The position numbers were made by a program, and so were the translations under genes. Below the pieces are notes generated by a model. It was given only the letters and a program-made list of their open reading frames with translations, made no database searches and was not told the DNA's origin. This document shows, one piece after another, positions 4,526 to 64,000 of a stretch of 64,000 nucleotides of DNA; positions within the stretch are counted from its first letter, which is position 1; each line of letters begins with the position of its first letter. The stretch is from Bacteroidota bacterium (GTDB lineage Bacteria; Bacteroidota; Bacteroidia; UBA7662; CANHCV01): NCBI GenBank assembly GCA_947501265.1, contig CANMVY010000009.1, positions 27,587 to 91,586 of the forward strand. Reading direction: 5' to 3'.

Positions 4526-7500
4526 TTATTGTCCTCCCTCCATTTTTTTATAATCTTCCAATTTCTTTTTCGCCTCTTCCAAAAGCTCGGGTTGATCTTC
4601 ATTCTCGATCAATCCTTCCAAAGTAGCGATGGCTTGGAAGATGTTTTTCTGTGCCACGTAGCTATCGGCCAACAGCATGAATCCTTTCGAAATCCAGGTG
4701 CCGTAAAAAGGTAATTTTTCGGTTAAGTCGAAAATTGCGTTTTGGCATTTGTCCTGTTTCCCTTGTTTGAAATAAATCATGGCTTGCAGGTATCGTGCTT
4801 CAGCTGCTTTTTCATCTTTCACCTGGTTCAATACTTTCTCCAAAGCGGTGAAAGCTGCTCCCAAATTGTTGTTTTCAATTTCAGCTTTACCCAAATACAA
4901 ATTTGCCAAAGCCTGCATTTCAGTTGGTACAGAACGGCTGTTCAACAATCGTTCTGCAGCTTTTTTACAATCTCCGTAATTTCCAAGGGCAAACAAACAC
5001 TGGGTTTCGCCGGCCTTCGCATCCAACAAATTTCCTTCCGATAAAGCGAACTTTTGTAGCTCCTGGAAGAATTGAAGGGCTTTCGAGTAATTTTTCAATT
5101 GAAACGCCAACCGAGCCGCGTTGATGTAAGATGCTTCGGAATAAGAATTTCGTTTTTGGGCAATGATATACTCGTAATCTTCCAAGGCTTGGGTACGGAA
5201 ATTCATGCGATTGTAACACTCTGCTCGCAAGAAATGCGCTTTGTCAACAAATAAACCTTGAGGGAATTTCTTGAGGTAATTGGAATAATCGTCAACGGCA
5301 TCCTTGCAAATGTTTTTCTTTCTAAACTGATTCTCGGCGGCAAGGAAAGTCAACGAATCTTGCTTCGCTTCTGAAGGTTGGTTGTTGGAGTGAATGCTAG
5401 CGTATTTCAAATAATCGTCTACCCGATTCAGCGTGCTGTAAATGTTTTCCAAGGTCTCCATCGCATCTTCAGATTCGTTGGTTCGTGGATAATTTTCAAC
5501 TACTTGCTTTAAGGTTACAATGGCATCTTCGTATTTCTCCAAATTGTATTCAATCAATCCTTTGGTAAGGAAAGCCTTCTTCAAATAAGCACTTTCTTTT
5601 CGTTCAGAAATCAACTGCTGAAGAACCACCAAAGCTTCATCAAACTTTACCTGGGTGAAGTACATGCTGGCAATTTCCAACAAAACTTGATCTTTGTAAG
5701 CGGAGTTGGGGTATTTAAACAAAAGCGTTTTTAGCTGTTCTAATTTGTCGTTTGTTTTTCCTTCTAAACCGGTTAAAATAGCCATTTGCAACTCGGCGTA
5801 CTCGGCCCCCGGCCATTGGTTTTTGCTGATTTCACCATAGGCGTTTTTGGCACTAGCGTAATTGCCTGAAAGAAAATGAAGATCGCCCAAACGGCCATAC
5901 AAATCGGCGGCAAAACCTTGCCCTAAAACTTTCAAAGCCGCTATACGATTCAGCTCAAATTCGTTGGCAGCTTTCGAAAATTCGGCAGCCGCTTGTGCAT
6001 TTTTTAATGTTTTGTAATAGCTGTAACCCAAGGTGTAACGAGCAACCATGGGCGATGATTCGATGGGTAATTTGAAAGTTTCCTCGTACTGATTCAAGAA
6101 CTTTTGATGGGAGAAGTTGCATCCTGCATAATCTCCTTGTTTGAAGAGGGCTTCAGCACGCCAGAAATGGGATAAAATTTCAATTTTCTTATCCACCAAA
6201 TGCTGTTGTGATTTGTAAAAACAATTAATGGCTTCTTTGTAGTCTCCGGCATTGTAAAGTTCTACACCGCGGTAATAGGAAGCACGTTGATAGGTTTTCT
6301 TCGTAACATAATCGAATTCAGGAATCTTCTCTAAAATTTCTAAGGCCGATTTAAAGTCGTTGGCTTCCAATAGCATGGTAGAAAGAAGTTCCCTCGCTTT
6401 GGTGTTGAATTTGCTTTTGGGGTAATCCTTGATAAAGTTTTGAAGAGCCGGAAGTGCTCCAACCAATTGACCTAATTCGTACGATAGCTGAGCATATTGG
6501 AAAGAACTTTCCTCTTTTAAAATGGGATCGAAATTCATTTTTGAAGCAGCCTGAAACGCCAATCGCGCCTGGTCTTTGTTCCCATTTTCCAAAAGCGAAT
6601 GCGCGAGGTAATAGGTGGCATTCTGACCCATGGAGTCTTTCTGAACACCTACTTTTCCCAATGGATCCAATGCTTCCTTGTAATCTTTGATGAAGAAAGA
6701 CGACAAACCAAGGTAGTAATTTTCTGTTGGGCTTAACTTCTCAGATTGACTGGTTTTCTTCAAAAAAGATTGGCATTTGAAATAGTCTTTGGTTTGGAAA
6801 TAAGCTAAACCAAGCAAGCGGTAAAGAGCAATTTCTTCACTTCCTGAAATGTTTCCAACTTTATTTTGAGCGTAAGAAATAACCTCTGAATATTGTTTTA
6901 ACTCGTACAACAACTCCGCCACTTTTACGATGGCTTCTTTGGAGTAACTGGGGTCGGCATCAATTTTTTTGTATTGTTCGATGGCCTTTTGGTAATCCTT
7001 TTCTGAGATTAAAATGTACGCTAACAGGTAATTTACCTGCCCTTTGTAGGGGGAGGGAAGTTCTTTGATGTCGTTCAGCAGGTTTTTTGCATTCTTGTAA
7101 TTCCCCTTTTGAAATTGACAAACGCCCGTCATGTAATTGATCTGAATCAGCTCATCGGCTTGAAATTGTTCTTTATTTTGAATCGATTGAAGTTGATTCA
7201 AGGCTTTGGGGTAGTCTTTTTTCTGAAAAGAGGAGGTTCCAACGATCCACCAACCTAAATCTTGGTAGGAACTGTTTCCCTCTTGAAGGAATTGCTCCAA
7301 TTGATTGATTTTTTCAGGATGATTCTTTGCATCGCAAATCATTCGAAGGGTTTTCCAATCTCGTTGTTCAAAGAGTTGAGGAGAAATTTTCTCCAATTCA
7401 TTGAGGGAGGAAAGACAAGGCAACCAAGCTCGATGCTCTAATTGGAAATGAACATCCCGCTGAAGAACCCATTCGGGTTGCATTCCAAGATTCCTTTGGG

Positions 7501-25186: not shown

Positions 25187-25566
25187 GTCGGTCGGTTCGG
25201 CTTGTCGCTTGTTTGAAAGAAAGCAAGAGGAAAGTCCGGACAACCAAGGGCAGCGTGCTTCCTAACGGGAAGGCACCGGAAACGGTGACAGAGAGTGTCG
25301 CAGAGAAAAACCGCCGATTGCGAAAGCAAGGCAAGGGTGAAAACGTGGGGTAAGAGCCTACGATGCTTCAAGGTGACTTGAAGGAGGGATAAACCTCACG
25401 CGTTGAAAGGCCAAATAGGCAGTGAACAGAAGCGGCCCGTTTCGATTCCTTCGGGAATTTCACTGTGGGTAGGCCGATGGACCTTGTGGGCAACTGCAAG
25501 GCTAGATGAATGGCAAGCTCGGGGGAAACCCTCAGACAAAATCCGGCTTACAGGGCCGGCCGACAT
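25187..25566 (+). ncRNA. rnpB: RNase P RNA, bacterial class A
   Basis: The universal core is clear: GAGGAAAGTCCGGACAACC near the 5' side (CR-I) and AGACAAAATCCGGCTTACAG near the 3' side (CR-V), with ACAGAGAGTGTCGCAGA and CAGTGAACAGAAGCGG-like P-helices between. The terminal helix P1 pairs GTCGGTCGG (from 25187) with CCGGCCGAC (to 25564). This RNA is the ribozyme that cuts 5' leaders from tRNA precursors. A T-run follows the 3' end. It sits between a secreted hydrolase and the NtrC-type regulator, which starts about 20 bases later. Confidence 0.96.
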
Positions 25567-26947: not shown

Positions 26948-27873
26948 AAAGATATTGCATTTTTTTGGGGTTACTTTTTGTAACCCTTTTTTCATTTGCT
27001 CAGAACAGCCAAGAAGTGGAAGTGGTTGTTCAGGGAGATACCTTGAGAGGGGTTTTAGATTTACCTTCTGAAAAGGTCAAACAGGTCATTTTGTTGCTCC
27101 CCGGAAGCGGGCCAACCGACCGCAATGGGAACAATCCGCAAATGAAATCCAATGCCTATTTGCAACTTAGCGAGGAATTGCAAAAGGGTGGGGTAGGAGT
27201 GCTTCGAATCGACAAAAGAGGCATTGGAAAATCGACCGTTAAAAATTTCAATGAACGTTCGTTGCGATTTGAAACTTTTGTTTTGGATGCAATTGAATGG
27301 GCAAAATGGTTGAGGTCATTGGGCTATGAAGTGGTCATTGCCGGCCATTCGGAAGGGAGCTCCATCGGTATTTTAGCCAGCCAAAAAGTGCCGGTGAAAG
27401 GACTCATTTCTTTAGCTGGACCAGGTCGCTCGGCTGGAGAAATTCTTCAGGAACAAATCGGTCAACAGCCGAAGGAAATCCAAGAAATGGCACTTCCCAT
27501 TTTATCAACGTTGAGAAAAGGAACCCAGGTTTCCGATGTTCATCCGTTCATGATGGGCCTTTTCCGGCCTAGTGTTCAACCGTATTTGATTTCTTGGATG
27601 GCCGTAGATCCCGCCAAGGAAATTTCTACCCTACAAATTCCGGTTTTGGTGCTCCAAGGCGATCGCGATTTACAGGTAAGGGTACAAGATGCCAAAATAC
27701 TCGCCAATCGCTCTAATAACTCGAAAATCGTGATTTTAAAAGGGGTGAATCATGTCTTGAAAAAGACCGGCAAAGACCGGGAATCCAATATGAAATCCTA
27801 TGCCGATCCCAGCCATCGCATTGATCCGAGCGTTGCTCGCGAAATTTTATCCTGGCTGGGCTCCATTCGTTAA
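26944..27873 (+). CDS. Exported alpha/beta hydrolase
   Basis: This is a 309-residue protein with signal peptide MKRYCIFLGLLFVTLFSFAQ. The alpha/beta-hydrolase fold shows the oxyanion region LLPGSGPTDRNGN, the nucleophile elbow GHSEGS, the acid in LQGDRDLQV and the catalytic His in GVNHVLK. The family includes periplasmic serine esterases and peptidase S33-like enzymes. The substrate is unknown. Translational coupling to the sigma-54 regulator is notable, since the regulator may sense the same stimulus. Confidence 0.85.
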   Translation: MKRYCIFLGLLFVTLFSFAQNSQEVEVVVQGDTLRGVLDLPSEKVKQVILLLPGSGPTDRNGNNPQMKSNAYLQLSEELQKGGVGVLRIDKRGIGKSTVKNFNERSLRFETFVLDAIEWAKWLRSLGYEVVIAGHSEGSSIGILASQKVPVKGLISLAGPGRSAGEILQEQIGQQPKEIQEMALPILSTLRKGTQVSDVHPFMMGLFRPSVQPYLISWMAVDPAKEISTLQIPVLVLQGDRDLQVRVQDAKILANRSNNSKIVILKGVNHVLKKTGKDRESNMKSYADPSHRIDPSVAREILSWLGSIR

Positions 27874-40207: not shown

Positions 40208-40348
40208 GCCGCAAAGTTCGAAAAAAAAGTGCAAATGAAGGGTCTAATAAAATGGACAAATTGAAGGAGGTAAGAAAGAAAAAAACGCATTTAAACCGAC
40301 TTGAAGGTTTTAGCTCTATTTTTGAAAAGGCATTGAAAAATGGTTTTT

Positions 40349-43300
40349 ATGAAAAAAGTTCTTTACCCGGTATTGTTCCTGTTTTTTGGATTGATCTACC
40401 TTTCTAGTTATGGACAAACCTCTGAAATTCGTTACGGAGGAGTCAAATTGGGATTAAACATGGGCGGTGGTTGGCAGCAATCCGACGTTCAACAAGTTTA
40501 TCCAATGTTTTCTCGCGGATTAACCCTGGGAATTCCCGTTTACAGCAAGCCAAATGCTTTTTGGGCGGTTGATCTTCGTGGACGTTGGTTGAACGCAAAG
40601 TCCGAAGGAAATCAGACCTTCAGGACTGTTGCAAGCGATGAAAATGTCTTCAAGCAAGATTTTAATTTTTCGAATGCTTATCAAGCTACGGATAGTTTAT
40701 TCCATAATCATCGCACCATTTTTAAAGAAGGAAACCTAGAATTGGTTTTGGGATTTAATCGTTTGCGTGAAAAAACTGGGATTTATTTGTACGGATTTGG
40801 AGGATTGGGAATTGCAGGATATCAGGTTTTCCAAGAAATCATTCGCGAAAATGGAGACGGATACAATTTTTCCTCCATCAATACGAATCAGAAAGATCCC
40901 TATCAAATTGCTGATCAAATTCGTAACCTTCAGAAAGATGGAAATCTTTTTACCTTGGATTACGAATCGGCAGCTGTAGGGTACGATTTAAACACGTATC
41001 GTTTAAGGTTCACACCCTCGTTAGGTGCCGGTCTTGGTTTTTACCTCACTCCAGGGTGGATGATTGGATTGGAACACAAAGTTTCATTTCCTTGGAAAGA
41101 AGATCGCTTGGATGGTTATGCTTCAACCGATATTCGTGCGAAATACGACCGCTTTCATTATACAGCCTTAAAAACAGAGTTTACGATTGGCGGTCGCTTG
41201 AATCGAAAAAATCGTGGAGACAAAGGAAATCAGGTACAAAACGACATAGAACCCAGTGTTCGTTGGGAATTTCCTGTCGGAAATCCTTATGAATCTGCCT
41301 CTTCTGTAGTAACAGTTCGAGCCAAAGTGTTTCAGGTAAAAGAACGAAGTCAAATTACTTTTTTGGTGAATGGAGTTCAGGATGACCGATTTTCATGGAA
41401 TCCAACTTCCCAAACACTCACATCTACCCTAAACCTTCAGCGCGGGTCCAATGAAATTGTGGTGATGGCTCGAAACGATCAAGGCCAAGCTTCGGGTTCT
41501 CGCACCCTTGTTTACGATGTAAAACCGGTGTTCATCGATACCATTCGCAACAATCCGCCCACCAATACCGTATTGGCTCCTCAAATTTTTTGGATGAACC
41601 CTTCAGGCGGTATGGGCAATACTTCGGATGAAATCTTCACTTTTCAAGCCGTAGTGAAACAAGTCACTGAAAAAAATCAGATCCAATTGATGGCTCGCGG
41701 AAATCAAATTTATGATTTCACTTTTGATGCCAATTCAGGAACGGTTTCCGCAGTGCTTCCCTTGGTAATTGGAGTAAACCGATTGAATGTTATTGCCCGA
41801 AATGCAGGTGGTACTCAATCTTCTACAGCCGAAGTTACCGTTGAAAGAAATTCGACGCCCAGCAATTTTGGAAAAGCACCAACCATCGATTTGATGCGCC
41901 CAACTTCCCGTAACTTTTTCTCTACAACCCAAGAAAAAGTGCTTTTTGAGGCCGTGGTAAAGCAAGTTACCGATCCATCTCAAATTACCCTCACTTTTGA
42001 TCAGCAAAAGGTAACCAATTTCAGCTTCAATTCCATTTCAGGAATGGTGACCGCCAATTTAATGTTGGAACCCGGAAACCATTACCTCAGCATTCGTGCA
42101 AGAAATGAATTTGGAAGTGATGTTGAAAATCTCATGCTGGTGCGAGAAGGAGGGACGTTCGACCCGGTTAATCCAACCAATCCAACCAATCCAACCAATC
42201 CAACCAATCCAACCAATCCAACTAATCCAACCAATCCAACTAATCCAACTAATCCAACCAATCCAACTAATCCAACTAATCCAACTAATCCTACCAACCC
42301 GACAAATCCAACAAATCCAACAAATCCTAATAACCCAACCAATCCCATTGCAGCTCCTCAAATTGTCTTTACCAAACCTTCACGGAGTCCGTTCAATTGG
42401 GTAAATACCTTTACTTCTTATGAATATGCAGCGGTAGTGAAAAACGTTGCTCGTTCTCAAGATGTGAAAGTCTACATCAATGGAAATGAAACCGTTGCTT
42501 TTTTCTACAATGAATCCAATGGAGTTTTAACTGGTTCATTTTTCTGCAATCAAGGCTCCAATACCATCCAAATTATTGGAACCAATTCCAAGGGTACAGC
42601 TGCGGAAACAGCGATCGTAAATTACAATTCAGAAAATCCCCCAACTCTTCAGTGGTTAAGTCCAACCCAACTCACCACATCGAAAGCCACCGAAATCATC
42701 CAAGTTAAGGTTGCTAACGTTAAAAATAAATCCGATATCCAAGTCAGTGTAAATGGCAAATCGGTATTTTTTACGTATTCGTATTCCAATCAAACCATCA
42801 CCATTTCTACCCCACTTCAATTAGATGCAAATGTCATTGAAATCAAAGCAAAGAATTCTGCCGGATCTGATCAATTGGTGAAAACCATCACTCGAACATC
42901 CACCACCGGTTCAAATGGAAATACAGGCGGAAATACGGGCGGAAACACCGGCGGAAACACCGGCGGAAACACCGGCGGAAATACGGGCGGAAGCACCGGC
43001 GGAAGCACGGGCGGAAGCACAGGCGGAAGCACAAATCCTCCTGTTGCATTAGCTCCAACCGTTCAATGGACCACACCGTCTTCTTCATCTATTCGAGTGA
43101 ATTCCATAGATTACACCGCCGTTGCACAAGTGCGAAACGTTGCAACCTCCAATGAATTAACGGTTACCCAAAATGGAAATCCCATTGCATTTCAATTTTC
43201 ACCAGAAGATGGAAGCGTGCAAGTGCCGCTTTCCCTTCAAGATGGAATCAATACTGTTTCCATCTTGGCAAGAAATGCTGGAGGAAGCGATTCGAAATCG

Positions 43301-44257
43301 GTTCGAATTACGTTGGCAACTCCAACTGGAACACCAAGTAATCCATCTGCCGAGCCCGCCGACCCTAACCGAATTCCTAGAATTATTTGGGTAAACCCTT
43401 CAGGAAGAATGAATAATACCAGCTATTCTTCTACCTATCGCGTTCAAATTCGATTTGAAAATGTTACGGCTTCCAGCCAAATTCGATTTAAATTGAATGG
43501 TGTTAATCATGTATTTGGATTTGATGCTTCAACCAAAACCTTAGAAACCAGCATTCGTCCTCGCACCGGAGATAACTATCTTTTTGTAGAAGTAAACACG
43601 GCCAACGGACATGCCGAAGATTCAGCTCAGTTGTACCACGATTTGACCAGCAATTCGGGAGCGCCATTGCTGAATGTTTTGAATCCGGCTCGTAGAAATT
43701 CTACCGTGAATCAAGATCGCATTACCCTCCAAGCGGAGGTGAGGAATGTTTCAAGCAACGAAGAAATTGAAGTCATTCACAACAATAATGTGGTGAGCTT
43801 TTCGTACGATCCCGTTACCTTCCGAATGACTTGTCCGTTGCAACTAACGGTGGGAATTAATCCGATAACCATTACCGTTACAACACCAAATGGCCGTGAA
43901 CAAGAGCAATTGGTGATTAACTATCAGCCGGAACCAACTCCCGGACAAACGGAAAGCACCCCTCGCAGCGGTGGTGGACAATCGCCAAATCGTGGTAACC
44001 AAATTCAAGAGCCACAGAGAAAGGTAGAAGAAAGTAAAACGCCCAAAACGCCAACGGCCAGCCTGCGACCTGTTAAACCCACAACAACCGAGCCTACAAC
44101 ACGGCCAAGTCAGTCGGCAACGCCCAAGCCTACGGTGAAAGAGCCCGTAAGAACGGCTCCTCCGGTGAATAATGCGCCATCCAAACCCAAAGCAGATCCA
44201 TCGGAAACGCCGAAACCTAAAATGAATAAGCCCACGCCAAAAACAGGTGGCGAATGA
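40349..44257 (+). CDS. Large surface protein: N-terminal barrel plus eight Ig-like repeats
   Basis: This is a 1302-residue protein. Signal peptide MKKVLYPVLFLFFGLIYLSS is followed by about 270 residues of barrel-like strands. Eight repeats of about 90-95 residues follow. Each opens with a P-x-I/V-x-W/F segment and has QVTxxxQI, NG, a strand, and N-x-I/V-x-I-x-A-R-N-x-x-G, which suggests bacterial Ig-like or PKD-like folds. Two low-complexity linkers interrupt them: (NPT)n at residues 608-667 and (GGNT/GGST)n at 860-895. A Pro/Thr/Lys-rich tail ends the protein, with no T9SS sorting domain. It probably works at the outer membrane as a stalk or adhesin. A -7 box TATTTTTG (40317-40324) lies upstream. 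The stop touches the ancestral stop of the disrupted alkylation repair gene. Confidence 0.85.
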   Translation: MKKVLYPVLFLFFGLIYLSSYGQTSEIRYGGVKLGLNMGGGWQQSDVQQVYPMFSRGLTLGIPVYSKPNAFWAVDLRGRWLNAKSEGNQTFRTVASDENVFKQDFNFSNAYQATDSLFHNHRTIFKEGNLELVLGFNRLREKTGIYLYGFGGLGIAGYQVFQEIIRENGDGYNFSSINTNQKDPYQIADQIRNLQKDGNLFTLDYESAAVGYDLNTYRLRFTPSLGAGLGFYLTPGWMIGLEHKVSFPWKEDRLDGYASTDIRAKYDRFHYTALKTEFTIGGRLNRKNRGDKGNQVQNDIEPSVRWEFPVGNPYESASSVVTVRAKVFQVKERSQITFLVNGVQDDRFSWNPTSQTLTSTLNLQRGSNEIVVMARNDQGQASGSRTLVYDVKPVFIDTIRNNPPTNTVLAPQIFWMNPSGGMGNTSDEIFTFQAVVKQVTEKNQIQLMARGNQIYDFTFDANSGTVSAVLPLVIGVNRLNVIARNAGGTQSSTAEVTVERNSTPSNFGKAPTIDLMRPTSRNFFSTTQEKVLFEAVVKQVTDPSQITLTFDQQKVTNFSFNSISGMVTANLMLEPGNHYLSIRARNEFGSDVENLMLVREGGTFDPVNPTNPTNPTNPTNPTNPTNPTNPTNPTNPTNPTNPTNPTNPTNPTNPTNPTNPNNPTNPIAAPQIVFTKPSRSPFNWVNTFTSYEYAAVVKNVARSQDVKVYINGNETVAFFYNESNGVLTGSFFCNQGSNTIQIIGTNSKGTAAETAIVNYNSENPPTLQWLSPTQLTTSKATEIIQVKVANVKNKSDIQVSVNGKSVFFTYSYSNQTITISTPLQLDANVIEIKAKNSAGSDQLVKTITRTSTTGSNGNTGGNTGGNTGGNTGGNTGGNTGGSTGGSTGGSTGGSTNPPVALAPTVQWTTPSSSSIRVNSIDYTAVAQVRNVATSNELTVTQNGNPIAFQFSPEDGSVQVPLSLQDGINTVSILARNAGGSDSKSVRITLATPTGTPSNPSAEPADPNRIPRIIWVNPSGRMNNTSYSSTYRVQIRFENVTASSQIRFKLNGVNHVFGFDASTKTLETSIRPRTGDNYLFVEVNTANGHAEDSAQLYHDLTSNSGAPLLNVLNPARRNSTVNQDRITLQAEVRNVSSNEEIEVIHNNNVVSFSYDPVTFRMTCPLQLTVGINPITITVTTPNGREQEQLVINYQPEPTPGQTESTPRSGGGQSPNRGNQIQEPQRKVEESKTPKTPTASLRPVKPTTTEPTTRPSQSATPKPTVKEPVRTAPPVNNAPSKPKADPSETPKPKMNKPTPKTGGE
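42170..42349 (+). repeat. In-frame 9-bp tandem repeat, 20 units (NPT)n
   Basis: The unit AATCCAACC (with AAT/ACN variation) is repeated 20 times in frame, giving 17 NPT followed by NPN, NPT and NPI. Pure identity over many units predicts length change by slippage. The linker separates the third and fourth Ig-like repeats. Confidence 0.97.
42926..43033 (+). repeat. In-frame 12-bp tandem repeat, 9 units (GGNT/GGST)
   Basis: The unit GGCGGAAAYACN is repeated five times, then GGCGGAAGCACN four times. It encodes five GGNT and four GGST tetrapeptides between the fifth and sixth Ig-like repeats. Neither unit contains a stop in this frame. Confidence 0.95.
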
Positions 44258-44283
44258 TTACAAATGCTTCAACGCCTCTCGTT
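44258..44283 (-). pseudogene. Displaced 3' end of the DNA alkylation repair gene
   Basis: Read on the minus strand, this piece gives R-E-A-L-K-H-L and a TAA stop, and it joins the frame of the alkylation gene's conserved K-R-E-A-L segment. The intact gene therefore once ended here, touching the stop of the Ig-repeat gene; the present gene instead ends in sequence brought by the insertion. This is a direct frame reading, strongly supported by the shared 14 bases. Confidence 0.85.
44270..44283 (+). repeat. Left copy of a 14-bp direct repeat at the insertion
   Basis: CAACGCCTCTCGTT is identical to 47290-47303. It marks the left junction of the inserted element; the final GTT begins the element's GTTATGC box. 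Confidence 0.9.
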
Positions 44284-47200
44284 ATGCCCAATGCTATGAA
44301 CGACAACTGTACAGACAAAAATGACTAAATTTGACAATATAATTTTACAGAAAACATGACCAAACAAGACGCTTATAAAAAAATCAAAAAACTGGTAGAT
44401 CGGTTTGACGAACAAAAAGAATTTTATAGAAAGGCTGAATACAATGAAACTCTAACTAGACGTGACTTTATTGACCCTTTCTTTAAAGCACTTGGTTGGG
44501 ACATAGACAATGAAAATGGTTATGCGGAAAGTTATCGTGAAGTGATACACGAGGACAAAGTCAAAGTTGGTAAAGCAACCAAAGCGCCTGATTATTCATT
44601 TAGGCTAGTTGGTGGAAAAAGATTATTTTTTGTTGAAGCTAAAAAACCAAGTATTGCAATTAAAGACGACATTTTACCAGCATATCAAGTTAGACGTTAC
44701 GGATGGAGTGCAAAACTTGCAATTAGTATTGTAACTGACTTTGAAGAATTTGCCATTTACGATTGCACAAAAAAGCCAAACCCAAGCGACAAAGCAGCAA
44801 CAGCAAGACTTAAATACATTACTTATTCCGACTATTTAAAAGAGTTTGATTTCATTTGGGACACATTTAGCAAAGAGAAAGTTCTTCAAGGTAGTTTTGA
44901 CAAATTTGTTCAAAGCGACACATATAAAAAAGGAACAACAACTGTTGACAATGAATTTCTACAATCCCTAGACAGATGGAGGACTTATCTCGCAACTTCA
45001 ATCAGTTGGAACAATAAAAACCTTAATGAAGACGAAATAAATTTTGCTGTTCAGCAAACCATTGACAGAATTATTTTCTTAAGAATTGCAGAAGATAGAA
45101 GCATTGAACCATATGGCAATTTAAAGTCTGTTCTTAAAAGTGGTGAATATTACGACAACCTATTTAGAATTTACCAAGAAGCAGACGACAAATACAATTC
45201 AGGACTTTTTGATTTTAACAAAGACAAAATTAGTAAAACATTAAAAGTTGATAACAAAGTTGTAAAATCTATTATCAATGAACTTTACTACCCTGAAAGT
45301 CCTTACGAATTTTCAGTTTTGTCAGTTGAAATTTTAGGGACAGCTTATGAACAGTTTCTTGGAAAACAAATTAAAGTTGATAAGGCACATCGTGCAAAAA
45401 TAGAAGAAAAACCAGCAGTAAGAAAAGCAGGTGGCGTTTACTATACACCACAATACATAGTTGACTACATAATAAAATACTCCGTTGGAAAACTGATAGA
45501 AGGCAAAGCACCAAAAGAAATTGCAAAAATAAAAATAGCCGACCCTGCCTGCGGCAGTGGCAGTTTTTTATTAGGTGCTTATCAATATTTACTTGATTGG
45601 CATAAGAATTACTACACTGATAATGGTAAGCGGTCTAAAGGAAATAAAGGCAATCCATTAACACCTGAGGGCAATTTAACAACTGCTGAGAAGAAACGAA
45701 TTTTACTTAATAACATTTTTGGAGTTGACATTGACGTTAACGCAGTAGAAGTAACAAAATTATCACTTCTTTTAAAATGTATGGAAGGCGAAACGCAAGC
45801 GAGTATTGAAACACAGATGAAACTTTTTAACGACAGAGTTTTACCTACACTAGACAACAATATCAAAAGTGGAAATAGCTTAGTTGATACTGATTATTAT
45901 GACGAAGAGTTCGACTATGGAGATGAAAAAACAATAAAGCCATTCAGTTGGAAGAAATCATTTGCAGACATATTTAAACAAGGTGGCTTCGATGTAATTA
46001 TAGGAAATCCGCCTTGGGTTTCATTGAATGGAAAATTTGGTAACGATATATTAAATCCACAAGCGCAGCAATACTTGATTCGGAAGTATTCTGGTAATAC
46101 TTATAGACCTAATCTATATGAATATTTTGTTCACAAGGGTCTCGAACTTATCAATGAGAAGGGTTATTTCACTTTCATTGTTCCTGATAGGCTAGGTTAT
46201 AATGAACAATTCATTAGCCTTCGTACAAAAATTCTAAAAACTTACAAAATAGAAGAATTACTTTATAAAGCACCATTTCCAGGAATTGTAACAGACACTT
46301 TAATTTTCCGAATAACTAATAAAAAGGAAAAGGAAAACAACTATAAGATTGTTGTAGGTGAGTTTGGGAAAAAACTCCAAACTAAATATTCAAATGATTA
46401 TTTAGTAGATACTGAGAAGAAGTTCAGCTATGAAAGCAATGACCAATCCTCAAAAGTCATTGACAAGGTATTTAAGAATAAAAGAGCAACGCCATTTTCT
46501 GAAATCATTGAAAGTAAAACAGGCGTTATCCTTGACACAAAACAAGTTTCAAAGGAGAAAAAAAATAGTAACCAAATAAAAATTGCAAAAGGCAGAAGCA
46601 TCGGTAAGTATTGTTTTTTGGACAATTTTTATTGTGAATTTGGCCCGAATACAATCAAAGGTGGCACTAATGATATTAAGAAGCTTGGTGTAAAAGAAAA
46701 GGTTCTTTTGCGGAAAACAGGTTTTCCAATTATTGCAACATTTGATTGTTCTGGAATGTATCCAGAACAATCATTGTATTTTCTAATAAATAATAAAACC
46801 TCGAACTCATTAAAATATTTTACTGCCTTAGTTAATTCAAACCTTTTTCAATTTGTTTACATCAATAAATTGGTAACAAATAAAGACAGCACACCACAAT
46901 TAAAAAAAGTTGATCTTGATAAGTTTCCTGTAGTCGTATGTGATTTAAAGAACAAAGACGAAAAAGCAAAACACGATGAAATTGTGAAGCAGGTTGACTT
47001 GCTTTTAAAGTTCAATGACGAATTAAACGAAACAACTTTTCAAAATAAAATTGAACACTTAAAGACACGAATTGAACATTGTGAAGAACGTATTAATGAA
47101 ATAATTTTTGACTTATACGGACTGACAAAAACAGACATTGAAACAGTTGACAAATATGATGAGAAATAGAAGCACTGGGCATAACAGCGGTTTTGCAAAA

Positions 47201-47300
47201 AAGCGGGTTCAGTGGTTAAATGAGCATTCTACCTCGCATCAACTTTTGTGGTATGTTGACAGTTTAGTGCTCCGAAATCCGCTTCTTCGCAACGCCTCTC
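44281..47300 (+). mobile_element. Inserted approx. 3-kb element carrying a type IIG R-M gene
   Basis: The element has a GTTATGC box at its left end and a GCATAAC box near its right end, in inverted orientation, joined by a long hairpin (47193-47292). These are features of integron cassettes with an attC site. The exact ends are uncertain by about 14 bases because of the flanking direct repeat. The element carries one gene, no transposase and no integrase, and is AT-rich compared with both neighbours. Insertion into the end of a chromosomal gene is shown by the displaced stop. No integron array is visible around it. Confidence 0.75.
44356..47169 (+). CDS. Type IIG restriction-modification enzyme (Eco57I-like)
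   Basis: This 937-residue single protein combines an N-terminal endonuclease (PD at 78-79 and E94-A-K96 in FFVEAKK), a helical linker and an amino-methyltransferase. The methyltransferase has AdoMet motif I DPACGSGSF (from residue 396) and the catalytic NPPW (551-554). A C-terminal target-recognition part ends in a coiled coil (EHLKTRIEHCEERINEIIF). It should methylate adenine in its recognition site and cut unmodified DNA. No separate specificity or restriction gene is present. The base composition (many AAA, GAC, ATT codons) differs from the surrounding genes, consistent with recent transfer. It is the only gene of the element. Confidence 0.9.
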   Translation: MTKQDAYKKIKKLVDRFDEQKEFYRKAEYNETLTRRDFIDPFFKALGWDIDNENGYAESYREVIHEDKVKVGKATKAPDYSFRLVGGKRLFFVEAKKPSIAIKDDILPAYQVRRYGWSAKLAISIVTDFEEFAIYDCTKKPNPSDKAATARLKYITYSDYLKEFDFIWDTFSKEKVLQGSFDKFVQSDTYKKGTTTVDNEFLQSLDRWRTYLATSISWNNKNLNEDEINFAVQQTIDRIIFLRIAEDRSIEPYGNLKSVLKSGEYYDNLFRIYQEADDKYNSGLFDFNKDKISKTLKVDNKVVKSIINELYYPESPYEFSVLSVEILGTAYEQFLGKQIKVDKAHRAKIEEKPAVRKAGGVYYTPQYIVDYIIKYSVGKLIEGKAPKEIAKIKIADPACGSGSFLLGAYQYLLDWHKNYYTDNGKRSKGNKGNPLTPEGNLTTAEKKRILLNNIFGVDIDVNAVEVTKLSLLLKCMEGETQASIETQMKLFNDRVLPTLDNNIKSGNSLVDTDYYDEEFDYGDEKTIKPFSWKKSFADIFKQGGFDVIIGNPPWVSLNGKFGNDILNPQAQQYLIRKYSGNTYRPNLYEYFVHKGLELINEKGYFTFIVPDRLGYNEQFISLRTKILKTYKIEELLYKAPFPGIVTDTLIFRITNKKEKENNYKIVVGEFGKKLQTKYSNDYLVDTEKKFSYESNDQSSKVIDKVFKNKRATPFSEIIESKTGVILDTKQVSKEKKNSNQIKIAKGRSIGKYCFLDNFYCEFGPNTIKGGTNDIKKLGVKEKVLLRKTGFPIIATFDCSGMYPEQSLYFLINNKTSNSLKYFTALVNSNLFQFVYINKLVTNKDSTPQLKKVDLDKFPVVVCDLKNKDEKAKHDEIVKQVDLLLKFNDELNETTFQNKIEHLKTRIEHCEERINEIIFDLYGLTKTDIETVDKYDEK

Positions 47301-47307
47301 GTTTGGA
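47171..47307 (+). repeat. attC-like hairpin at the right end of the element
   Basis: GCATAAC (47179-47185) corresponds to the R'' box. TTGCAAAAAAGCGGGTT (47193-47209) pairs with AATCCGCTTCTTCGCAA (47276-47292) at 14 of 17 positions, including a central AAGCGG block. The expected closing R' box GTTATGC is missing here: GTTTGGA follows at 47301. GTTATGC instead stands at the left end of the element (44281), as would happen if recombination occurred at G^TT. AGCACTGGGCATAAC (47171-47185) mirrors GTTATGCCCAATGCT (44281-44295) in 14 of 15 bases. Confidence 0.55.
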
Positions 47308-47946
47308 GAGGTTAGAAAGCGGATGTTTTTCAACAAAGCCTAAAACCCAATCGGGTGAGGTTCGGGCATATTGACGCAAGGCCCACCCGATTGATTTTCG
47401 AATGAAAAATTCCTTTTGTTCAAAATGGGGCAACATGCATCGTTCTAACCAGCCTTCGTCGGTTTTGCTTTTGTAGGTAAGTTGGTGCAAAATAGCCACC
47501 CGATTGAACCAAAAATGCGAGTGAGAAATCCACCTGGGCAAAACCTCCTCCCGCTTTTCGGGGAATGAACTAAAATATCCTCCTGCCCAATTCGATGCGA
47601 TAAAATCCAACGTATCCCACCAGGGGCGGGAATGGATGCAATGCTCCAAAATAGAGAGGAAATTTTCCGACTTCCATAGTTTTTGTTTGTGCGCCCACTC
47701 CATGCCGAGGTATTGGAATTCTCGATGGGGCGCATCCCACAATAGATGGAAAAAATCAAAGTTTTCCGATTCCGTTTCCCAACGCACCTTTAGCCACTCT
47801 TTGGTGATCTCTTTTCGCAACGGACTTGAAATTCCAAGAAAGTCACCTTGGTCTTTCATGTATTTTTTCATGCCAACGCTTTTTTCGGGGTTGGCATTTC
47901 TTTTCAATTCAAGTGCAATGATTTCGAAAGTTTGTTGCGGATTCAT
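47239..47946 (-). CDS. DNA alkylation repair protein (HEAT-like), C-terminus altered by insertion
   Basis: This 235-residue helical protein has the ALK family pattern. The WWDTLDFIASNWAGGYF and FWFNRVAILHQLTYK segments, FIRKSIGWALRQYARTSPDWVLGFVEKHP and the final LSKREAL are all expected. Members flip or excise alkylated bases such as 3-methyladenine. The last 16 residues (RRSGFRSTKLSTYHKS) are read from the inserted element and replace the ancestral KHL. Since the change is at the extreme end, activity may be kept. It is divergent from priA. Confidence 0.88.
   Translation of the reverse strand: MNPQQTFEIIALELKRNANPEKSVGMKKYMKDQGDFLGISSPLRKEITKEWLKVRWETESENFDFFHLLWDAPHREFQYLGMEWAHKQKLWKSENFLSILEHCIHSRPWWDTLDFIASNWAGGYFSSFPEKREEVLPRWISHSHFWFNRVAILHQLTYKSKTDEGWLERCMLPHFEQKEFFIRKSIGWALRQYARTSPDWVLGFVEKHPLSNLSKREALRRSGFRSTKLSTYHKS
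47290..47303 (+). repeat. Right copy of the 14-bp direct repeat
   Basis: It is identical to the left copy at 44270-44283 and lies inside the alkylation gene's coding sequence (read as KREAL on the minus strand). Confidence 0.9.
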
Positions 47947-50480: not shown

Positions 50481-50510
50481 TTGGAATTTAGGTAAAAATA
50501 AGTAATTTTG
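50481..50510 (+). promoter_or_regulatory. SRP RNA promoter
   Basis: TTG (50481-50483), a 19-base spacer and TAATTTTG (50503-50510) match the Bacteroidota consensus in every defined base. The RNA begins a few bases downstream. Confidence 0.8.
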
Positions 50511-50512
50511 TG

Positions 50513-50604
50513 CGGGCTTCACGACCAGCTCCCTCTGAACTCCCCCAGGACAGGAATGTAGCAAGGGCAGGAGGTTGTAGCGGTGCGATGAGGCCCTTTT
50601 TTAT
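50513..50604 (+). ncRNA. ffs: Signal recognition particle RNA (small bacterial type)
   Basis: The helix-8 core is recognisable: CCAGGACAGGAATGTAGCAA followed by GGGCAGG, with the GGAA tetraloop. The outer stem pairs GGGCTTC near the 5' end with GAGGCCC near the 3' end, followed by a T-run. The RNA binds Ffh and targets membrane proteins. Its promoter fits the consensus exactly. Confidence 0.93.
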
Positions 50605-63544: not shown

Positions 63545-63620
<76 letters not shown>

Positions 63621-63630
63621 ACCCAACCCT

Positions 63631-63716
63631 ACCCGGGTGGTGAAATCGGTAGACACGCAGGACTTAAAATCCTGTGCTCCTTAAAGAGCGTGCGGGTTCA
63701 AGTCCCGCCCCGGGTA
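63631..63716 (+). tRNA. tRNA-Leu (TAA)
   Basis: The acceptor ACCCGGG pairs with CCCGGGT. A long variable arm (GTGCTCCTTAAAGAGCGT) identifies class II. The anticodon loop CTTAAAA contains TAA. Discriminator A is followed by CAA, so CCA is not encoded and needs the CCA-adding enzyme encoded in this window. Confidence 0.96.
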
Positions 63717-63768
63717 CAACCCGTTGCTTCAGGTGGTCTATTGATTGCCCAAAGTAGATAGGGATTTA

Positions 63769-63777
63769 GTTCTTTGA
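63769..63777 (+). promoter_or_regulatory. boxA-like leader motif, copy 2
   Basis: GTTCTTTGA repeats the 9-mer of the tRNA leader, about 90 bases before 16S. Confidence 0.5.
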
Positions 63778-63865
63778 AATAGTGAAGGATAGAAGTTAAA
63801 AGGTAAAAACGAAGTCAATTCTAGGAACCTTTGAGTATAAGCCGGGATTAAAAAAAACAAACTAT

Positions 63866-64000
<135 letters not shown>

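Follow-up and report, generated by a model that had tools for sequence, protein, structure and literature searches.

The 64,000-nt window analysed here (positions 27,587 to 91,586 of contig CANMVY010000009.1, assembly GCA_947501265.1, Bacteroidota) carries a gene for a single-chain restriction-modification (R-M) enzyme on an insert of 3020 bp (net), which lies between a gene with immunoglobulin-type (Ig) repeats and alkD, a DNA alkylation repair gene, and which is considered below as a candidate integron-type gene cassette. Its cuts are at 44281|44282 and 47301|47302; the features are collected in Table 1. The host genome is designated G000 and its congeners G001 and G002; labels beginning with G, C and L denote genomes, contigs and loci.

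Both ends of the insert carry the same 14-bp sequence, CAACGCCTCTCGTT, which an exact search of both strands found nowhere else in the 2.33-Mb genome. The G+C content of the insert (0.329) is about 10 points lower than that of the Ig-repeat gene (0.435) and of the right flank (0.433). The repeat (44270-44283 and 47290-47303) and the AT-richness had both been pointed out in an earlier note on this DNA, and its statements about alkD were borne out by translation: minus-strand 44258-44281 reads REALKHL-stop, and the host AlkD open reading frame (ORF; 47239-47946, minus strand) now ends with KREAL followed by RRSGFRSTKLSTYHKS, the 16 residues encoded by the insert. The note was also correct that the insert contains neither transposase nor integrase: the only ORFs of at least 80 aa inside it are the R-M ORF on the plus strand and one of 84 aa on the minus strand.

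An empty site, with the target present once, was found in both congeners compared, as TTACAAATGCTTCAAGGCTTCTCGTTTGGAG in G001 and TTACAAGTGCTTCAGTGCTTCTCGTTTAGAG in G002, and AlkD terminates in KREALKHL-stop in both. This is the empty site that the note had proposed to look for, and it agrees with the ancestral order suggested there, in which the stop of the Ig-repeat gene touches that of alkD. Near the C-terminus of 21 AlkD relatives, REA occurs in 20 and EA in all 21. The insert-encoded tail, which would have spoken against an insertion had it been native to the family, was present in 0 of the 21. The empty sites also show that the alkD target has a G|TT without being attI or attC, as is characteristic of attG-type sites.

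The R-M protein matches the PADLOC model REase_MTase_IIG with an E value of 3.8e-192 and, like other Type IIG enzymes, unites nuclease, methylase and specificity parts in one chain (Pfam, PADLOC). By domain content it is an ordinary Type IIG member, differing from the others in its unusual carrier.

Complementary ends, folded site and cassette arrays

Missed by the earlier note was the attC-type site into which the right end of the insert folds: its first 14 bases (GCACTGGGCATAAC) are the reverse complement of the left end (GTTATGCCCAATGC) at 13 of 14 positions; the next best stretch listed reaches 10. The match to a covariance model of this site, R1, spans 47172-47314 and follows directly after the R-M ORF (44356-47169), which is the gene-then-attC order of a cassette, with mutually complementary R boxes cut at G|TT.

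BLAST matches to the folded stretch were obtained in 26 of 60 genomes, the host included, often several per contig. The alignment of 36 attC sites from which R1 was built contains 17 predicted pairs, 14 of them with compensatory changes. At E <= 1e-8, R1 matched in 113 of the 149 class genomes and in 81 of their 101 genera; the 36 genomes without a match at this threshold belong to a set consisting mostly of drafts. No Rfam family was found at gathering scores on the insert or on the searched 40 kb of an array in genome G005.

In this array (G005:C35, 40 kb) a pattern search registered fourteen copies of the folded site. In 13/13 cassettes, 10-13 of 14 positions of the start are complementary to the end of the same cassette, while non-matching start/end pairings gave a mean of 6.8 and a maximum of 12. 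At further loci, 57 of 66 neighbouring pairs follow the same rule at a threshold of at least 7 of 9 positions. Such complementarity corresponds to the logic of integron cassettes, in which the two halves of one attC lie on a circle that opens at G|TT.

The earlier note had described a compact defence unit that moved into a conserved gene end. A single R-M gene was indeed inserted in the end of alkD, but the unit is an attC-type cassette, and neither the R-M gene nor a preference for conserved gene ends defines it: the cassettes of this class carry many genes and are mostly located in arrays beside an integron-like recombinase.

The exact 14-bp direct repeat at both ends, the single target copy in the empty sites and the lack of a recombinase within the insert would also suit a non-autonomous, transposon-like unit on which a DDE transposase acted in trans, duplicating 14 bp of the target. 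We consider this very improbable. The insert has neither a transposase nor terminal inverted repeats; its left end pairs with an internal point of the right fold, in accordance with the rule of the array cassettes. Other cassettes are cut at G|TT without such a repeat, and copies of the folded end follow one another in the same orientation in arrays linked to one type of recombinase.

A separate observation concerns the right ends of arrays: at L010, L137 and L170 several last cassettes are followed by CG|TCA(G/A)ACTGTCTAAAAAC, and at L170 a similar stretch, inverted, is found on the left side. This sequence may mark a 3' border shared by these arrays, or serve as a hairpin target.

Table 1. 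Features of the insert and its surroundings (window positions)
Feature	Position	Strand	Basis or remark
Ig-repeat gene, upstream, co-directional with the cassette	40340..44257	+	ORF list; possible source of read-through
Severed native alkD end, REALKHL-stop	44258..44281	-	Translation
Left copy of 14-bp repeat, ancestral alkD target end	44270..44283	+	Exact search; empty sites
Cassette start GTTATGCCCAATGC, R'-type box, its G from the target	44281..44294	+	13/14 complementary to 47172-47185
Probable integron-type gene cassette	44282..47289	+	TT of the G|TT cut to last cassette-derived base; empty sites and end complementarity
Type IIG R-M protein, 937 aa: HSDR_N nuclease part, Eco57I/N6 methylase, TaqI_C specificity domain	44356..47169	+	Pfam; PADLOC
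attC-type folded site with altered 3' end; R'' flank GCACTGGGCATAAC at 47172-47185	47172..47301	+	Covariance model R1, 107.9 bits; fold
alkD (DNA_alkylation)	47239..47946	-	PF08713; 47290-47946 native, 47239-47289 insert-encoded 16-residue tail and stop
Right copy of 14-bp repeat	47290..47303	+	47290-47301 occupies the place of CAAAACG-type ends seen in other attC
Target hairpin CCTCTC-GTTTG-GAGAGG, G|TT cut in loop	47295..47311	+	17/2000 shuffles as good

Recombinase and attI platform

Eleven aligned recombinases were used to scan named genomes for platform loci, and the best 80 of at least 584 relatives were analysed. They include Flavobacterium, Algoriphagus, Cyclobacterium, Pedobacter and many Bacteroidota metagenome-assembled genomes (MAGs), and also three MAGs labelled Ignavibacteria, Ignavibacterium and Azoarcus. 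All 131 attC sites detected on these loci are on the recombinase strand, 128 of them downstream from the recombinase gene and 3 upstream. Where at least 1.5 kb follow the gene, attC was found in 37 of 42 loci, which places arrays beside a tyrosine recombinase; at L208, L220, L246, L280 and L283 none was found despite this length. The contig ends before 1.5 kb in the remaining 38 loci, 4 of which have attC.

The arrays begin about 105 bp past the recombinase gene; between the two lies a conserved attI-like site, cut at G|TT. The 37 first cassettes compared come from 36 of the 37 attC loci (L253 has no clear start) and from L211: 33 begin 71-137 bp past the recombinase stop, and 34 are preceded by AG. 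The attI of G000 is identical to that of G001 at 40/40 positions before the cut and at 19/40 after it; the corresponding values for G002 are 30/40 and 15/40. This drop at the cut is that of one attI, conserved at the border between recombinase and array, with three different sequences from G|TT onward. A recombinase gene and attI are located at the end of G000:C4, and the host genome thus carries an integron-like platform of its own.

The G000 recombinase was aligned with the structure 2a3v (IntI4) over residues 17-187 and 208-283. Between these parts it has 20 residues as against 62 in the structure, so the IntI-specific segment is missing; the short form was found in 11/11 aligned recombinases. 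Its best NCBIfam match is NF040815, with 216.2 bits (cut-off 220). In length and catalytic core these proteins resemble XerA, XerC and XerD (NF040815, TIGR02224, TIGR02225), but their genes lie 5' of attI and cassette arrays, which is not the expected context for chromosome-dimer resolution. Judged from layout and sequence, the platform is an integron-like variant, having the layout and site logic of integrons and failing one defining feature of IntI.

The linkage of the arrays to a tyrosine recombinase with attI, together with their in-register complementarity, also argues against single-strand transposition of a hairpin-ended unit by an HUH enzyme, as in IS200/IS605-like elements, although no search for HUH genes was made. 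Such a mechanism would fit the strongly folded end and the precise left cut, and is in our opinion a very improbable origin of the insert.

R-M relatives, sites outside arrays and origin of the insert

Relatives of the R-M protein were found at E <= 1e-80 in 22 of 247 class genomes, including the host; 30 loci were kept, the window being one. In the 1.5 kb flanking the match, attC is absent from all of the other 29. A first conclusion, that no R-M relative is located in a cassette, was dropped, as it rested on these short flanks: longer stretches, taken for the 20 partial matches (L301, L305, L313 and L314 being cut by contig ends; the 9 full-length matches kept 1.5 kb), gave attC in 2/20. In these two, L313 and L314, attC lies on the strand of the R-M gene and a matching cassette start (12/14 each) precedes the gene, which is an open frame of 1004 and 1008 residues, respectively, within a multi-gene cassette of an array. 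R-M genes of the wide family therefore do travel in such cassettes. The exact R-M cassette of the window was not found elsewhere among the stretches of the 29 relatives.

The cassettes of L313 (137-5766, G258:C6) and L314 (minus strand, G235:C57) consist of a small ORF, the Type IIG-like R-M relative and a further ORF. Several R-M relatives (L174-L203) match only the first ~540 residues, with 62-81% identity; these partial matches suggest exchange of the C-terminal specificity part.

A listing of sigma-70-type promoter matches gave none within the initial 75 bp of the cassette, but the promoters of Bacteroidota differ from this type. Read-through from the Ig-repeat gene is the predicted mode of expression of the R-M gene, the product of which is predicted to act as a restriction barrier.

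R1 sites outside arrays also occur elsewhere in the genus: on C2, C3 and C6 of G000 besides the window, on C138 of G001, and on eight contigs of G002 other than the recombinase contig C84. Some are degenerate, and cassette starts were matched for only some of them. The cargo of L130 is a C-5 methylase with an MvaI/BcnI-type endonuclease, and that of L064 a Fic/Doc gene preceded by a small ORF that matches no family. Base-exact empty sites for L064, L121, L128 and L130 were sought in the congeners, the flanks of which were too diverged.

Two repeats were seen at these loci. In L064 (G002:C81) the end of an M42-type peptidase gene is repeated exactly over 51 bp: the copies, at 5351-5401 and 6814-6864, flank the small cassette cluster with the Fic/Doc cargo and are not in register with the ends of the cassettes. 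L128:3797-3885 is a short interspersed repeat of the genus, present in many places in G000 and G001, with more than 20 BLAST matches in each of two congeners.

The empty sites, the complementarity of the ends, the array rule, the conserved fold, the linkage of recombinase and attI and the presence of both in the host, the two distant R-M relatives in cassettes and the further attC-type sites outside arrays in G000, G001 and G002 make it very probable that the insert is an integron-type gene cassette, made up of the Type IIG R-M gene and an attC-type site, which belongs to no array, occupies a G|TT within the final codons of alkD and was likely placed there by the integron-like tyrosine recombinase of the host.

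Several findings weigh on the other side. The recombinases lack the IntI-specific segment and remain under the cut-off of TIGR02249, the integron integrase family: matches were obtained in 16/16 genomes tried and exceeded the cut-off in 0/16, and all 14 control genomes also matched, weakly, so that a match alone proves nothing. The array of the host platform is lost at the contig end of G000:C4. The R-M proteins of L313 and L314 are only ~39% identical to that of the window, and 27 of the 29 R-M relatives have no attC in the stretch examined, which was 1.5 kb for the 9 full-length matches. Finally, the right junction is non-canonical, while the classical attG reaction is expected to give clean junctions with no copy of the target.

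For an integron-type cassette, the insertion would have started from a circle, the folded strand of which was exchanged with the G|TT at the end of alkD, in the manner of attC x attG in classical integrons; replication or repair would then have completed the process.

Loot et al. reportedly described in 2024 the insertion of integron cassettes at genomic attG sites. Insertion at secondary (attG) sites at G|TT outside integrons is known for classical integrons (PMC10127599). The insert resembles those cases in being a cassette with its attC outside an integron, at a G|TT distinct from both attI and attC; it differs from them in the recombinase lineage, in the 12-bp target copy on the right and in the attC being read as the tail of AlkD. 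In Treponema integrons, recombinase and cassettes are co-directional (PMC3607928), the recombinase gene reading toward attI and cassettes as it does here; the recombinases described here are without the IntI-specific segment and their hosts are mostly Bacteroidota, the comparison with Treponema being one of layout only.

The IntI-specific insertion has been presented as a defining feature of IntI (PMC9668308) and as essential to integron function, yet not fully conserved in its subgroup (PMC8138268). Bacteroidota are listed among the phyla with integrons (PMC8618304, PMC9668308), and intI genes were reported in the Bacteroidetes/Chlorobi group (PMC2426708); according to the IntegronFinder 2.0 paper, integrases without cassettes were all that had earlier been found in Bacteroidetes, to which a single complete integron, that of Salinibacter ruber, was then added (PMC9024848). 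Integrons in the phylum are thus not new as such, and R-M and other defence genes are already known in integron cassettes (PMC12444791). The lineage with short recombinases is new as far as titles and abstract openings on Bacteroidota integrons show; this coverage is incomplete, and absence from print is not claimed.

The evidence tips slightly towards a wider picture, in which Bacteroidia would harbour a large integron lineage, largely overlooked in the surveys consulted, with Xer-like recombinases without the IntI-specific domain; its cassettes, those with R-M genes included, would move out of arrays into chromosomal genes, where repair copying at one junction could rescue an interrupted gene end. 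If the recombinases are active, the IntI-specific domain would be dispensable, a large and little-read cassette pool would be opened, and the descent of integrons from Xer-like recombinases would become testable. With its empty sites, the window clearly exemplifies the move of a defence gene out of such a system and into a chromosomal gene.

Right junction and other features of the window

Before the cut, attC sites mostly end in CAAAACG or CAAACCG. The last part of the attC of the window is CAACGCCTCTCG, identical to the target at 12/12 positions; a 12-bp target copy has taken the place of the last ~15 nt of the cassette. Directly beside the cut, the left and right sides share a run of at most 4 bases in 28 other cassettes, first or single, whose left flank was usable, and a general target duplication for these cassettes was rejected. 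As 17 of the 28 precede another attC, only 11 compare host with host. L145 and L159, the left flanks of which are cut by contig ends, were omitted, as were attC matches without a clear start, L130 among them; of 108 attC matches three were not entered, two being cut by an end and one antisense.

A like patch was found at L130 in G002, which is also an R-M cassette: CACAAAGCTA is present on both sides, plus a preceding G. The ancestral site of L130 could not be aligned in G000. By eye, the switch points of both patches lie on 3-nt microhomologies, CAA in the window and GCA in L130. According to a hand translation, a usual attC end of the G005 type would give AlkD the sequence KRFAAL, whereas the target copy retains KREAL.

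Our preferred, although unproven, explanation of the junction is repair copying followed by selection for the REAL/KREAL motif: 12 nt of intact target would have been copied and the cassette rejoined at the microhomology CAA, and this version may have been kept because it preserved the conserved REAL C-terminus of AlkD. Alternatively, the copy may have arisen from the recombination itself, if both strands were cut around an overlap and mismatch repair converted both overlaps to the target version. This alternative bears on the junction and not on the nature of the element. It would account for the target version on both sides of the insert in the window and in L130; we regard it as possible, although rather unlikely, given that the 28 other cassettes do not show it and that the length of the replaced stretch, 12 vs 15 nt, is off that of a normal attC end.

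The alkD target can be drawn as a hairpin with the cut in its loop, but hairpin targets were rejected as a general rule: when 10 sites were shuffled, as good a hairpin was obtained in 17/2000 shuffles for alkD, in 159/2000 for L139 and in at least 351 for each of the other eight.

Elsewhere in the window, the Ig-repeat gene contains a long Asn-Pro-Thr repeat (42100-42360) in which several frames are open. RNA features at 25189-25566, 50507-50600 and 63545-64000 comprise RNase P class A, a Bacteroidales-type small signal recognition particle RNA, two tRNAs and the start of a 16S rRNA gene.

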